Of a stretch of 64,000 nucleotides of DNA, positions 27,622 to 32,820 are shown piece after piece (the first letter of the stretch is position 1; each line of letters starts with the position of its first letter). Made by a program: the position numbers and the translations under genes. The notes beneath the pieces were generated by a model. That model searched no databases and was not told the origin of the DNA. It was given only the letters and a program-made list of their open reading frames with translations. Source of the DNA: Paludibaculum fermentans (GTDB lineage Bacteria > Acidobacteriota > Terriglobia > Bryobacterales > Bryobacteraceae); the NCBI RefSeq assembly GCF_015277775.1, contig NZ_CP063849.1:5223501-5287500 (forward strand). Direction: 5' to 3'.

Positions 27622-28461
27622 TCAGATGGCGGCGCCGCAGAAGCCGGCCAGGGTGATGGTGCTGGGCAGGGTGGCGGATCCCGACTTGGCGGTTGGCGTC
27701 TTGAGCTGAACGGAGATAGCAGCGGCCCGCAGGACAGTGCGCAGGGGCCGGGCCTTGGCTTCGGACTCGATGGCGGACTGGAGCTGAAGCAGGACGGCCT
27801 CGGCCGCAGCGGTGTCGGGGTGGACGTCGCCAAGGAGCGTATGGCGCATCTCCCAGGACTGGCGGGCGGGCGTGAGTCCTTCCTGAAAATGGCCGCGCGA
27901 CCATTGCAGGGCGGCGAGGTGGTAGCACATGGTGGCCGTCAGGGCGTTGACTTCGCCGAAGGCGCGGGAGGCAAAGAGGATGGCGAGGCTGTAGAAGCAG
28001 GCGGCCTGTTCGAGGTTGGCGGCGAGCTTGTAGTTCAGGGCCAGGTTGTTACAGGCGGTGACGAGCTGGTCAGGGACGTCGCGGTTGGCTTCGGCGAGGG
28101 TAAAGGCACGCCGAAAGAAGGTCTCCGCCTGACGGTAACGGCCGAGTTGGCGGAGGGCCACGCCGAGCAGGGTAAGGACTTCGAACAGCAGGCTGTCGCG
28201 CTCGGGGCGCGGGACGGAATCACCGAGCTCGTCCAGGATTTCTTCCGCGCGTTCGGCGCATTGCAGGGCCTCGGCCCACTCCTGACGGCGGTCGAGGATC
28301 CAGCCCAGACGGCAGAGGGCGGTGACGACGTCGGTGTGGATGGGGCAGAGTTCTTCGAGGATGAGGAGCGATTCGCGGCAGAGCTCCTCGGCCTCCTCCA
28401 ACTGGCCTTCGATCAGGTGTTCGCGAACGGACCGGCGGACGGCGTTGTGAATGCCGGACAT
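27622..28461 (-). CDS. Tetratricopeptide repeat protein, paired with a globin-like gene
   Basis: 279 residues from ATG 28459-28461 (GAAGGTG 6 bases upstream). Consecutive TPR-type helix pairs run through most of it: LIEGQLEEAEELCRESLLIL, RQEWAEALQCAERAEEILDE, LGRYRQAETFFRRAFTLAEA, ANLEQAACFYSLAILFASRA, and GHFQEGLTPARQSWEMRHTL. No signal peptide or membrane helix, so it is cytoplasmic. The C-terminal 60 residues look disordered. Two bases separate it from the stop of the upstream globin-like gene, so they form one operon. It may act as a scaffold in the signalling island at 27.6-32.8 kb; its function is not known. Confidence 0.75.
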   Translation of the reverse strand: MSGIHNAVRRSVREHLIEGQLEEAEELCRESLLILEELCPIHTDVVTALCRLGWILDRRQEWAEALQCAERAEEILDELGDSVPRPERDSLLFEVLTLLGVALRQLGRYRQAETFFRRAFTLAEANRDVPDQLVTACNNLALNYKLAANLEQAACFYSLAILFASRAFGEVNALTATMCYHLAALQWSRGHFQEGLTPARQSWEMRHTLLGDVHPDTAAAEAVLLQLQSAIESEAKARPLRTVLRAAAISVQLKTPTAKSGSATLPSTITLAGFCGAAI

Positions 28462-28463
28462 AC

Positions 28464-28868
28464 TCAGCACCTTCCGGCGACCAGGGACGCCATGGCACCG
28501 CGCTGCAGGGTGGACGAAACGAGGCCGCACAATGAGAGCCAGGCTTCGCGAACTTCGGAGGTGAACTTCTCGCCAAGAGCTTGCTGCAAGGTCCACAAAA
28601 GACAGGCGCCGACAGCATCGGGGATCTGCTCGCCGGCGCCTGGGGTGGAGGTGTTCGCCGAGTTGTCCATGAAGTCGAGGCTGCGAACAGCGACGGCAAT
28701 CACACGCATCAGCTTCTGCGCCTGCTCCTCCACAGGAGCGCAGAAGACGTAGCGGAGGGACGGCTCCACGGCGAACAACCGGTGGAAAAAGATGACCCCG
28801 GCTTCGATTGAGATCGGCTTCAGGGCCGCGTAACTTGCCTGCACCAGAGATTTCTGACGAGACGTCAT
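28464..28868 (-). CDS. Globin-fold protein lacking the proximal histidine
   Basis: 134 residues, start ATG 28866-28868 with GGAG 8 bases upstream. The A-E helices are recognisable: LVQASYAALKPIS, FFHRLFAVEPSLRYVF, VEEQAQKLMRVIAVAVRSLD. The G-H end is AVGACLLWTLQQALGEKFTSEVREAW. Between them the F-helix block LRELGRRHVDYGVRPEHY, present in the globin at 32.4 kb and carrying the haem-ligating His, is replaced by about 17 unrelated residues (NSANTSTPGAGEQIP). The flanking reading frame is intact and neither other frame restores a His, so this is a real change and not a simple frameshift. It may no longer bind haem in the usual way and could act as a protein-interaction or signalling domain. It is followed by a TPR gene. 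Confidence 0.72.
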   Translation of the reverse strand: MTSRQKSLVQASYAALKPISIEAGVIFFHRLFAVEPSLRYVFCAPVEEQAQKLMRVIAVAVRSLDFMDNSANTSTPGAGEQIPDAVGACLLWTLQQALGEKFTSEVREAWLSLCGLVSSTLQRGAMASLVAGRC

Positions 28869-29087
28869 GGTCATAGCTCCGAGTAGTCTAGGTCCCGGCG
28901 GAATGGGTGCCAGCCGAATCCTGCGTTAGCTGCCTCCGTGCGCCGAGTGGTACGAATCCCACCGATGGAGAGCAATGGACGCAACTTCAAGTCCGGGGCA
29001 GCATATTTTCGCTCTCATATTGATCTGCGCAAACGAGCGGCGAAACGTACCAATGGATGAAAATATTTTTCACGTTTAGAATGGGCT

Positions 29088-29675
29088 ATGGTCAATTTGC
29101 CCGGTGGATCGGCCCGGGAACAGGTGACGAAGCTTCTTGTGGACTGGGGCCAAGGGAACAAGGAAGCGCTGGACCTGCTTACCCCCATTGTTTATAGGGA
29201 ATTACATAATCTGGCGGAGCGGTATCTGCGCCTGGAGCGGAATGCGGCTACGCTGCAGCCGACGGCGCTGGTGCATGAGGCGTACCTGAAACTGGTGGCG
29301 CAGGATGCGCCGGACTGGCAGAGCCGGTCGCATTTCTTCGGCGTGGCGGCCCATCTGATGCGGCAAATCCTGGTGGACAACGCCCGGAAGCACAGGAGCG
29401 AGAAGCGTGGCGGCGGAATGGCCAATGTTCCGCTGGATGAGGCGTTGTCGATGTCACCGGAGCGTAGCGCCGGGGTGATTGCGCTGGATGACGCGTTGAA
29501 TCAGCTGGCCATTGTGGACGAGCGCAAGGCCAAGGTGATTGAGCTCCGGTTCTTCGGCGGTATGACAGTGGACGAGACCGCGAACGCGCTGGGGATTTCG
29601 GTGGCGACGGTGGGCCGGGAGCAAAGGCTGGCCGAGGCGTGGCTGCATCGCGAAATGAGCCGGACGACCGCGTAG
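29088..29675 (+). CDS. ECF-type RNA polymerase sigma factor (acidobacterial TIGR02999-like)
   Basis: 195 residues. Region 2 is seen in IVYRELHNLAERYLRLERN and LVHEAYLKLVAQDAPDWQSRSHFFGVAAHLMRQILVDN; the segment HRSEKRGGGM is typical of this subgroup. Region 4 is ELRFFGGMTVDETANALGIS followed by VATVGREQRLAEAWL, the HTH that reads the -35 box. These sigma factors usually sit directly before a Ser/Thr protein kinase gene and are probably controlled by it instead of a classical anti-sigma; here the kinase follows 14 bases later. The divergent region upstream (28869-29087) would hold promoters for this and the globin/TPR operon. ATG at 29088; the upstream ribosome-binding site is weak (GGG). Confidence 0.9.
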   Translation: MVNLPGGSAREQVTKLLVDWGQGNKEALDLLTPIVYRELHNLAERYLRLERNAATLQPTALVHEAYLKLVAQDAPDWQSRSHFFGVAAHLMRQILVDNARKHRSEKRGGGMANVPLDEALSMSPERSAGVIALDDALNQLAIVDERKAKVIELRFFGGMTVDETANALGISVATVGREQRLAEAWLHREMSRTTA

Positions 29676-29689
29676 GTCACAGCTGAATA

Positions 29690-32413
29690 ATGTCACCGGA
29701 GAACTGGAAACGAGTCGAGGAACTGTTCAACGAAGCCGTCGAGCTGCCGAAGGCGGAGCGCGGGCAGTGGCTGGACGCGCAGTGTGCGGGTGACGCGGAG
29801 CTGCGTCTGGAAGTGCTGGCTCTGCTGGCCAGCGACGAATCGGGCCGGGGCTTTGTGGAGCAGGAAGTAGCGGGGGCAGTCCTGGAACTGCACTCGCGCC
29901 AGACGGCGTCGGAACCGCGGCGGATTGGGCCCTATCGGCTGGTGCGGGAACTGGGCCGGGGCGGGATGGGCACGGTCTACCTGGCGGAGCGCGCGGACGA
30001 CCAGTATCAGGGCGAGGTAGCGATCAAGCTGGTGCGGCAGGGGATGGACACGGAGTTCTTCCTGGCGCGATTCCGGCGCGAACGGCAGACTCTGGCGCGG
30101 CTCCAACATCCCAATATTGCGCGGCTGCTGGACAGCGGCACGACGGACGAGGGGCTGCCGTTCATCGTGATGGAGCGGGTGGACGGGGTCCCGATCAACA
30201 CCTACTGCGAGGAACACAAGCTGGGCGTGGATCCGCTGCTGCGGCTGTTCCTGCAGGTGTGCGCCGCGGTGGCGCATGCGCACCAGAACCTGGTGGTGCA
30301 CCGGGACCTGAAGCCGGGCAACATCCTGGTGGACTCGACAGGCACGCCCAAGCTGCTGGATTTCGGGATCTGCAAGCTGCTGTTGCACGAGCCGGCGGAA
30401 GGGGAGACAGTGACGGGCGCGGCGATGATGACGCCGGATTATGCGAGTCCGGAGCAGGTGCGCGGCGAACCGATCACGGTGGCCAGCGACATCTACTCGC
30501 TGGGCGCGGTGCTGTTTGAGCTACTGACCGGAGCACGTCCGCACCTGATCGAAAAGTACTCGCCCCAGATGCTGGAGCGAGCGATCTGCGAGCAGGAGAT
30601 CCGGCGGCCGAGTACGCTGGTCAGCGACCGGACACGGGCGCGGCAACTGGCCGGAGACCTGGACACGATTATCGGCCAGGCGATGCAGAAGGAGCCGGCC
30701 CGGCGCTACCAGTCGGTGGAGCAGTTCGCGAACGACATCCGGCGCCACCTGGACAACCGGCCGATCACGGCGCGGCCCGATACGATGACCTACCGAGCCC
30801 GAAAGTTCGTGTTGCGGAATCGGGGCATGCTGGCGGCGGGACTGGCGGTAGCGGCGGCCCTGACGGTGGGGATCGTGGTCTCGGCGCACGAGGCGAGGGT
30901 GGCGCAGCAGAGGTTCGGGCAGACGCGGAAGCTGGCCAATGCGCTGATTTTCGACGTGTACGACCGGGTAAAGCCGCTGCCTGGTTCCCTGCCCGCCCGC
31001 GAAGCCATTATCCGCACCGGCCTGGAGTATCTGGACAACCTGTCGGCGTCGGCGCGCGGGGATGGCGATCTGCGGGTGGAACTGGCGGGCGCGTATGAGC
31101 GCATGGGCGAGGTGCAGGGCAACATCCTGGGTTCGCACAAAGGGGACACGGCCGGCGCGCAGACGAGCTTCAAGAAGGCGCTGGCGACGCTGGAGGGACT
31201 GCCGAACAGCGGCCAGGCGGGTCAGGCACGGCTGCGGATCTACCAGAGACTGGGCAATCTGGAAAGCTATACGGGGCACAAGGCCGAGGCACTGCGGGTC
31301 TACCAGGAGGCAGTAAAGATCGGCGATGAACTGGCGAAGACCGGACTAAACAACGAGGCGCGGCGGAGCCTGGCGGGCGTTCACGACTCGATCAGCCGGG
31401 TGTATCGCGAAAACGGCAGGTCGCAGGAATCCCTCGAAAGTGAGAAGCAGGCACTGGGCTTACTGGAGGATGCGCTGAAGGCGAATCCGGAGGACCGGGC
31501 GCTGCAGGCCTCTGTGGCGGCCTCGAATGCCGGCTATGGCATGGCGTTGGCGGGGGTGAACCAGTTGGAGGCGGCGCTGAAGAAGTTCCAGGTGTCGGCG
31601 GACGCGTGGGAGAAGATCTGCCAGGCGGAGCCAACCAATATCGACTTCCAGCGGCAGCGCATGCTGGCGTACAGCCACTTGGGGGATGTGAAGGGCAATC
31701 CAAACTACCCGAACCTGGGCGACAAGGCGGGCGCCCTGGCGGCTTTCCGCAAGATGATGGAGATCGCCGGAAGCCTGCACGACGGCAATCCTTCGGACCA
31801 GGGCAGTTTGTTCGATTACGGGATGGCGACGATGCGGACGGCGGCGCTGCCGGCGCAGAGCGCGGAGGAGCAGGTCGTGTTGTTCCGGCAGGCTTCGGAA
31901 CTGCTGGAGCAGGCGTCGAAGAACAGTCCGGCCAACATCAACATCGTGGTGAATATGGCAGCCCTCCACGAGCAACTGGGCGATGTGTTGTTGGGTGCGG
32001 GCCGGGCACGAGAAGCCGACCACGAATTTCTGGTGAGCCACCAACTGGCGGGCAAGCACCTGGCGGAGATGCTGCCGTTTTACCGGATTTACATCACGAC
32101 GGGCCGGAAACTGGCGGAGTCCGCGGCGGGACGCGGTGAGAGCGAAACGGCACTGCAGTACGCCAACCAGGCGGTGGCCATGGCGGAAAAGCTGAGCACG
32201 GCCAAGGGGGCCGGCGTGCCACAACGGGCGCTGGCGCCGCGGGCATACTCGGGGTTGGCTTCGACATACGAACGGCTGCACCGCGCGGCGGATGCGCGGC
32301 GCTGGCGGGAGAAGGCGCTGGCATTGTTTCAAGAGTTGCAGGACAAGCCCGGATTCACCCGCTACCACAAGGAAGAGATGCAGAGGGTGGAGAAAGCGTT
32401 GAAAGGGAAGTGA
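29690..32413 (+). CDS. Transmembrane Ser/Thr protein kinase with TPR-like sensor domain
   Basis: 907 residues. After a short helical N-terminal segment comes a full kinase domain: P-loop ELGRGGMGTVYLAE, Lys113 in EVAIKLV, catalytic Asp206 in VVHRDLKPGNILV, DFG at 224-226, and TPDYASPEQVRGEP in the activation segment. One membrane helix (GMLAAGLAVAAALTVGIVVSA, about 380-400) places the remaining 500 residues outside. That part is made of TPR-like repeats (ALATLEGLPNSGQAGQ, YTGHKAEALRVYQEAVKIG, LGDKAGALAAFRKMMEIA). It lies 14 bases after the ECF sigma gene and overlaps a globin gene by one base, forming an operon. The signal sensed is unknown; an oxygen, nitric oxide or redox link through the globin is only a hypothesis. 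Confidence 0.9.
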   Translation: MSPENWKRVEELFNEAVELPKAERGQWLDAQCAGDAELRLEVLALLASDESGRGFVEQEVAGAVLELHSRQTASEPRRIGPYRLVRELGRGGMGTVYLAERADDQYQGEVAIKLVRQGMDTEFFLARFRRERQTLARLQHPNIARLLDSGTTDEGLPFIVMERVDGVPINTYCEEHKLGVDPLLRLFLQVCAAVAHAHQNLVVHRDLKPGNILVDSTGTPKLLDFGICKLLLHEPAEGETVTGAAMMTPDYASPEQVRGEPITVASDIYSLGAVLFELLTGARPHLIEKYSPQMLERAICEQEIRRPSTLVSDRTRARQLAGDLDTIIGQAMQKEPARRYQSVEQFANDIRRHLDNRPITARPDTMTYRARKFVLRNRGMLAAGLAVAAALTVGIVVSAHEARVAQQRFGQTRKLANALIFDVYDRVKPLPGSLPAREAIIRTGLEYLDNLSASARGDGDLRVELAGAYERMGEVQGNILGSHKGDTAGAQTSFKKALATLEGLPNSGQAGQARLRIYQRLGNLESYTGHKAEALRVYQEAVKIGDELAKTGLNNEARRSLAGVHDSISRVYRENGRSQESLESEKQALGLLEDALKANPEDRALQASVAASNAGYGMALAGVNQLEAALKKFQVSADAWEKICQAEPTNIDFQRQRMLAYSHLGDVKGNPNYPNLGDKAGALAAFRKMMEIAGSLHDGNPSDQGSLFDYGMATMRTAALPAQSAEEQVVLFRQASELLEQASKNSPANINIVVNMAALHEQLGDVLLGAGRAREADHEFLVSHQLAGKHLAEMLPFYRIYITTGRKLAESAAGRGESETALQYANQAVAMAEKLSTAKGAGVPQRALAPRAYSGLASTYERLHRAADARRWREKALALFQELQDKPGFTRYHKEEMQRVEKALKGK

Positions 32414-32820
32414 TGCGGCAGGACGCACAACTGGTCCGCGATAGCTTTGAGGCGATCCGGGAGATGTCGACCCCGACAGCGATGCTGTTTTATGGGCGTC
32501 TCTTCGACCTGGATCCGTCGCTGCGCGGATTATTCCACGTCGATTTCAAGGTGCAATCCGGCAAGCTGATGGACACCCTGTCACTGGTTGTCGAGAGCGC
32601 CGAGCGGTTGGAGAAACTACGGCCCACGCTGAGGGAGCTGGGACGGAGACACGTCGACTATGGCGTGCGGCCGGAGCACTACCAGACGGTGAGTACCGCC
32701 CTGATCTGGGCGCTGGCCCAGGCGATGCAGCCCGACTTTCACGATGACGTGCGGGCGGCCTGGACACGAATCCTGGACGAGGTCTGCCAGGAGATGATGA
32801 GGGGCGCGGAGCAGGGCTGA
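32413..32820 (+). CDS. Single-domain globin with intact proximal histidine
   Basis: 135 residues, start ATG 32413 overlapping the kinase stop (TGATG); a GTG one codon earlier is possible. Globin helices: LVRDSFEAIREMSTPTAM, LFYGRLFDLDPSLRGLF, GKLMDTLSLVVESAERLEKL. The F-helix block RELGRRHVDYGVRPEHYQTV carries His80, the probable haem ligand. The G-H region is ALIWALAQAMQPDFHDDVRAAW. The length and RRHV-YGV motif fit single-domain globins of the flavohaemoglobin or Vitreoscilla type, which bind oxygen or detoxify NO. Being co-translated with a kinase suggests a regulatory or sensory role. It is paralogous to the globin-like gene of the divergent operon. Confidence 0.88.
   Translation: MRQDAQLVRDSFEAIREMSTPTAMLFYGRLFDLDPSLRGLFHVDFKVQSGKLMDTLSLVVESAERLEKLRPTLRELGRRHVDYGVRPEHYQTVSTALIWALAQAMQPDFHDDVRAAWTRILDEVCQEMMRGAEQG

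Follow-up and report, generated by a model that had tools for sequence, protein, structure and literature searches.

A haem globin gene conserved as the third member of ECF sigma factor/kinase gene groups in Bryobacteraceae, and its haem-site-less neighbour in Paludibaculum

Organisation of the locus

The window, a 64,000-nucleotide stretch of the 9.53-Mb Paludibaculum fermentans genome (G000), carries a leftward and a rightward gene group diverging from a common intergenic region. The six features of the first-pass annotation are all present where it placed them, as are the 2-base gap before the TPR gene and the overlap of a globin gene with the kinase stop codon. The features are as follows.

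27622..28461, minus strand: TPR protein gene (Pfam TPR), 2 bases after the left globin
28464..28874, minus strand: left globin-like gene, without F helix and proximal His (Pfam Globin 22.4 bits, cut-off 22 bits)
28620..28661, minus strand: codons 72-85 of the left globin, a coil in the AlphaFold2 model where relatives carry the F helix (net 8-residue deletion)
28875..29087, no strand: divergent intergenic region, common to the left globin and ECF genes and upstream of both (DNA alignments)
29088..29675, plus strand: ECF sigma factor of TIGR02999 (Sig-70_X6) type, ECF43-like (Sigma70_ECF 182.9 bits; TIGR02999 215 bits)
29262-29264, plus strand: Thr59 codon of the sigma factor's QPTA motif, predicted phospho-acceptor
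29690..32413, plus strand: transmembrane Hanks-type Ser/Thr kinase with a C-terminal TPR half (Pfam Pkinase 155 bits, TPR matches)
about 29933-30715, plus strand: kinase domain
about 30824-30880, plus strand: single transmembrane segment, with the TPR part beyond it
32410..32820, plus strand: right globin, a single-domain 3/3 haem globin (Pfam Globin 63.0 bits), its start overlapping the kinase stop
32650-32652, plus strand: F8 His codon of the right globin

The rightward genes are tightly spaced. The sigma stop and the kinase start are 14 bases apart, and in the right globin a GTG start precedes the kinase end by 4 bases. An ATG whose first base is the last base of the kinase stop codon is also present. 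The proximal His reported in the first-pass annotation as His80 is indeed the F8 residue, numbered from the ATG; from the GTG it is His81. In two congeners the ECF-proximal part of the intergenic region is kept, according to DNA alignments, and the TPR gene stays in place in both congeners that have a common neighbourhood with the window (synteny, L033 and L035).

The sigma factor and its kinase

The window sigma gene adjoins a Hanks-type Ser/Thr kinase gene and belongs to one of 25 such triads (see below). Its type is assigned by the TIGR02999 match; "ECF43-like" refers to motif and kinase neighbour. In EcfP and EcfK, which belong to ECF43, the acidic DAED motif is replaced and the kinase phosphorylates a Thr located there, according to the accessible parts of the two reports (PMC8999054, PMC13147305); the ECF43 consensus at this place is given as QTTA in the accessible text of PMC13147305. 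The window factor has QPTA instead of DAED, with Thr59 at the third position, and Thr occupies that position in all 25 triad sigma factors. Thr59 is thus the predicted phospho-acceptor, a prediction from motif alignment. It need not be the sole phosphorylation site, since in X. citri EcfK the factor with the Thr-to-Ala change at the motif site alone is still functional and a linker Thr can substitute (PMC13147305, in the part accessible).

The kinase carries the motifs GRGGMG, VAIK, HRDLKP and DFG. One strong hydrophobic stretch begins at residue 379, a transmembrane segment by hydropathy alone, and the TPR matches follow it. The TPR part beyond the membrane is probably the kinase's own sensor. 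Sigma factor/kinase pairs are common in this genome: 24 sigma factors score over the TIGR02999 cut-off, 20 of them with a kinase inside a 3.5-kb stretch. Only the window's factor adjoins any of the genome's four globin matches.

The right globin and its haem pocket

The right globin is a separate 136-amino-acid protein with no signalling domain in the same chain, unlike globin-coupled sensors. Globin is its sole Pfam match and no FAD/NADH reductase domain was found in it; the NCBIfam flavohaemoprotein model matches weakly (50.6 bits against a cut-off of 432). Its AlphaFold2 model has the globin fold with a normal F helix (pLDDT 95.4 overall), and its residues are those of HGbI-like single-domain 3/3 haem globins. 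HGbRL and HGbI are its closest solved relatives by sequence. Tyr B10, Phe CD1, Gln E7, His F8 and Tyr G5, positions named in the usual globin nomenclature, are found in 27 of 27 kinase-linked globins. From these pocket residues we infer that the right globin binds haem. One globin of the same family, from Mangrovimicrobium sediminis (L131:8001-8543), has Tyr instead of His at F8 and keeps the other pocket residues tested.

Conservation of the triad in the family

A profile built from ten haem globins (A1) was run on 237 genomes of the Bryobacteraceae with a threshold of 1e-3. It finds 46 globin matches in 32 genomes. Complete sigma-kinase-globin triads account for 25 of these, counting the window and one locus in which the kinase is split over two frames (L150). 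Three more matches are cut off or fragmented with kinase pieces alongside (L040, L147, L166), and in another (L151) an eroded kinase end lies upstream of the globin. Two globins are divergent to the sigma gene, namely the window's left globin and a second globin of G236. The remaining 15 lie elsewhere and include a flavohaemoglobin-like protein (L167), a partial match (L168) and one at a contig end (L160).

In 26 of the 27 junctions that could be read, the globin start codon precedes the kinase end by 4 bases; in the exception, L037, the start lies 5 bases past that end. A second sigma-kinase pair follows the globin at L038, L138 and L142. The kinase-linked globins form one clade of 28 sequences, L151 included (support 99/95), in a tree that omits duplicate records, flavohaemoglobins, fragments and scores below 35 bits. 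In a larger tree, from which a further 17 long or near-identical sequences were omitted, the clade has 29 members, including one from a genome of another family (99/96).

Presence of the globin changes 5 times on a tree of 35 kinases (the split L150 kinase is omitted), against a mean of 9.7 after shuffling, and none of 500 shuffles is as low. The globin is therefore inherited along with the kinase, with a small number of losses or gains. Eleven of the 35 kinases, which are close relatives, are without a globin; one kinase was counted with just 74 bases of sequence downstream (L226, in G118, a genome outside the 32 with a globin match). The TPR half of the kinase has matches in 63 of the 237 genomes at 1e-30, against 32 for the globin. 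Together with the close globin-less relatives, this indicates that such kinases can work without the globin.

Among 59 globin loci, 40 have titles that name no Acidobacteria, some of them on short contigs. A kinase is present in two of these (L101 and L126) and a matching sigma gene in none of the 40. Within the family, the rightward ECF sigma factor, transmembrane kinase and haem globin are a real conserved unit.

Tandem-repeat proteins with repeats of about 21 residues (KAGG...NHNQ) are encoded near some triads (L036:4476-5003, L037:13525-14058, L144:4482-5294), and at L036 and L037 the globin is followed, one gene on, by a C39-peptidase ABC exporter. The repeat proteins gave no convincing family match. 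They resemble exported peptides with multiple cores, and the sigma factor might have them among its targets.

The left globin

The left globin is 29% identical to the right one (BLASTP, 2e-18). As the first-pass annotation had noted, its F block is replaced and contains no His. The change amounts to a net 8-residue deletion plus unrelated sequence, with Thr in the F8 column, and the sole His of the protein is His31, in helix B. The Tyr residues at B10 and G5 are also replaced, while Gln E7 and Phe CD1 are kept. Modelled alone with AlphaFold2, the left globin is without an F helix, and residues 72-85 form a coil; the mean pLDDT is 55 at residues 71-80 and 71 at residues 81-90, against 85.5 overall. 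The model still matches globin structures, best 3s1i, and keeps helices A-E, G and H. That this protein binds haem through another residue, as an otherwise normal globin, is consistent with the kept Gln E7 and Phe CD1. We consider it very improbable, given the absence of an F helix from the model, the position of the sole His in helix B and the replacement of both Tyr residues.

A compensated frameshift was considered as the origin of the altered block and rejected. In a frameshift-tolerant profile alignment the gain is 4.9 at a penalty of -4, which 42 of 60 synonymous recodings match, and there is none at -8.

Two congeners, G002 and G006, keep the rest of the neighbourhood without a full left globin gene. 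DNA identity is 81 to 89% for the neighbouring genes and 70 to 83% for the TPR gene. In G002 the left globin is cut to an in-frame remnant of 21 codons (L033:13468-13533), which ends 2 bases before an ATG of the TPR frame. The 17 codons from the gene's start (35 of 51 bases as in the window) run directly into the last 4 codons and the stop (16 of 18 bases as in the window). The remnant may now serve only as a translation leader for the TPR gene, and its existence implies that the left globin gene was present in the common ancestor with G002. A DNA alignment of the locus reveals no trace of the gene in G006. In G236, which belongs to another genus, a divergent globin with an intact proximal His lies upstream of the sigma gene, and no haem-free globin was found at this position in any other locus read. 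The other observations indicate that the left globin is decaying. We read it as a gene that no longer has its haem site and is disappearing from the genus Paludibaculum.

The proposal of a conserved six-gene order is rejected, and that of a haem-free decoy as a conserved part of it is not supported: the left gene is missing from both congeners that share the neighbourhood, in one of which it survives as a remnant, and the sole divergent counterpart found in the family has the His. A functional regulator or decoy working with the right globin, in the manner of haem-free RsbR in the stressosome, would nevertheless fit some observations. The left frame is open, with a coding signal of 22 against 27 for the right globin; most helices are kept and the model is still globin-like; and haem-free globins with regulatory roles do exist, RsbR being one (PMC4476040, in the part accessible). 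A further globin-like protein without the F8 His is encoded in the same genome. The reduction of the gene to a remnant in G002 and its disappearance from G006, both of which keep the rest of the locus, together with the lack of a haem-free globin at that place in the other loci read, make this explanation improbable, and decay remains the preferred reading.

The further globin-like protein just mentioned (L032:9280-9699; G000:C1:6898282-6898680) has Val at F8 and changes at E7, CD1 and B10. Its gene follows two others whose products start, by eye, like secreted proteins. A haem-type globin (L031) adjoins a similar-looking gene pair elsewhere in the genome.

Whether the two window globins are paralogous, as had been claimed, depends on the sense of the word. 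They belong to one globin family in the wide sense; we do not favour a recent duplication that produced one from the other, because in the trees the right globin groups within the kinase-linked clade and the left one does not. Identities are a weak guide: the left globin is 27 to 35% identical to seven further kinase-linked globins and 28 to 41% identical to 21 other aligned sequences, and its best identity to any sequence in the set of the larger tree is 42%. In that tree it is weakly placed, on a long branch (94/82, 11 sequences), with globins found beside sigma-kinase pairs in other families and two proteobacterial sequences; the divergent globin of G236 falls outside this weak group. AU tests reject neither a place inside the kinase-linked clade (p 0.67) nor one with the G236 globin (p 0.85); they were run on a quick tree, for which the free search did not reach the better trees. 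To judge from the trees, the left globin probably belongs to another branch of the globin family and is not a duplicate of the right one.

Globins and kinases elsewhere in the phylum

A sample of 396 genomes of the phylum yields a globin match at 1e-20 in 14 genomes other than that of the window. In nine of the 14 the globin adjoins a kinase or is fused to it; no kinase neighbour was found for the globin in the other five (G315, G319, G358, G629, G640). The arrangements differ. G385 has a triad with 4-base overlaps at both joints, and its globin falls inside the kinase-linked clade of the Bryobacteraceae. In four genomes of one genus (G401, G409, G441, G486) the globin belongs to a divergently oriented gene group next to a sigma-kinase pair. 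In G417, of the same genus, it is divergent from the kinase, and a TIGR02999-type sigma gene lies 2 kb off on the other side. The globin of G549 is on the kinase's strand, about 1.1 kb downstream of the kinase and separated from it by one gene, and 4.1 kb from the sigma gene. In G606, a genome of another family, two globins with the F8 His flank a kinase-sigma pair (L249:7890-10579), a layout much like that of the window.

G626 encodes two single chains with the order Pkinase - Fer2 - Globin, Fer2 being a 2Fe-2S ferredoxin-like domain: L247:5392-8118 (908 amino acids) and L248:4893-7259 (788 amino acids). The longer chain has a cyclase match just below the cut-off (21.3 against 21.9). These proteins combine a globin and a signalling domain in the same chain, as globin-coupled sensors do.

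In the larger globin tree the two G626 chains pair together (99/99) and the other phylum globins, G385 apart, lie elsewhere; the deep forks that could prove separate origins are without support. Several recruitments of globins to kinases are likely. A broader reading, which we advance tentatively and at somewhat less than even confidence, is that Acidobacteriota recruited one haem-globin family at least three times as a gas or redox input to Hanks-type kinase signalling. The globin would have become the third gene, with an overlap, in operons of an ECF43-like sigma factor and a kinase, a neighbour of such pairs or a gene divergent from them (f27, f90 and f76, perhaps also the left globin lineage), and the C-terminal domain of kinase/2Fe-2S/cyclase-like single chains. 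Some copies, such as the left globin and L032, would have shed haem and may persist as haem-independent regulators.

The first-pass annotation proposed a linked module of both globins with the kinase and sigma factor. Its right-hand half stands: the globin keeps its order and overlap and is inherited with the kinase, and its relatives lie beside kinases, or in one chain with them, in other families. The left globin probably drops out of it. Mere chance might be thought to place a globin beside a kinase and sigma gene, such pairs being common in these genomes: TIGR02999-type sigma genes, of which the window's genome has 24, are present at 1e-20 in 12 of the 14 genomes, with 4 to 60 in each of these, and number 4 to 48 in each of the eight kinase-adjacent genomes other than G626. 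We find this hardly credible. By simple arithmetic a random gene would lie within 2.5 kb of such a sigma gene with a chance of only about 0.6 to 3% (the G549 globin is beyond that distance), and the association occurs in several families and, in one clade, has become fixed together with the gene overlap. For the triad itself, the 25 instances, the junction overlaps and the inheritance along the kinase tree all speak against coincidence.

A model for the role of the right globin

We propose, with a confidence that stands about level, that the right globin is a haem regulatory subunit of the kinase. The membrane kinase would be made together with the cytosolic haem globin. O2, NO or a related signal would bring about ligand binding or a redox change at the globin haem that alters kinase activity, and the kinase would in turn phosphorylate Thr59 of the sigma factor, perhaps along with linker sites. 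The phosphate at Thr59 would supply the negative charge that is missing from the sigma2.2 region and is needed to bind RNA polymerase. In this scheme the rightward operon would be the functional unit. Haem binding, globin-kinase contact, the signal and the phosphorylation are steps that we infer, and it is plausible that the right globin makes the kinase/sigma pair respond to oxygen or NO.

The right globin gene follows the kinase, as the gene of an output enzyme could. The globin might then be an O2- or NO-handling protein that is produced while the sigma factor is active: a store, a scavenger or an NO dioxygenase served by an external reductase. The pocket residues Tyr B10, Gln E7 and Tyr G5 could suit oxygen chemistry, there is the weak flavohaemoprotein match, and close relatives of the kinase do without a globin. 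Three observations set against this are the lack of a reductase domain, the strict overlap of the globin with the kinase gene, and the single chains of G626, which suit a regulator better. We regard an output role as rather unlikely, and continue to prefer a regulatory subunit.

To our knowledge, the signals sensed by the kinases of kinase-linked ECF sigma factors remain largely open. These sigma factors are numerous, as the counts above illustrate, and the haem globin tied to one family of these kinases points to a specific signal that can be tested. Because they hold kinase and globin in one protein, the G626 single chains offer a direct handle. Among the matches listed, literature searches returned no paper that describes a globin as part of an ECF/kinase module. 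The new element is the conserved haem globin link to the kinase/sigma pathway and not the haem-free neighbour.

Comparison with known systems

EcfP-PknT of Vibrio parahaemolyticus and EcfK-PknS of Xanthomonas citri resemble the window in having a sigma gene beside a Hanks-type kinase gene, a replaced DAED motif and a Thr at the phosphorylated position. The window differs by its third gene, the haem globin, none being mentioned for those systems in the accessible parts of the two papers (PMC8999054, PMC13147305).

The stressosome provides a looser parallel. The globin-fold sensors of the RsbR type, which carry haem in Vibrio vulnificus but not in Bacillus subtilis, target a kinase by which gene expression is controlled, according to the accessible portions of PMC9237108 and PMC4476040. 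Unlike in the RsbR-RsbS-RsbT-SigB system, neither window globin has a C-terminal STAS domain, and the kinase is of the Hanks type and not RsbT; the likeness is one of analogy only.

Hmp, Cgb and VHb have the globin superfamily in common with the right globin, which lacks the FAD/NADH reductase domain of flavohaemoglobins and is less similar to these three proteins than to HGbI and HGbRL. The latter two, the Hell's Gate globins of Methylacidiphilum (HGbI, 3s1i and 3ubc; HGbRL, 3wfw), are its closest solved relatives. HGbRL is described as a putative globin-coupled sensor in which such a globin is coupled to a Roadblock/LC7 domain (PMC4476040, in the part accessible). The right globin has no Roadblock fusion; it is a separate chain, linked to its kinase through the operon.
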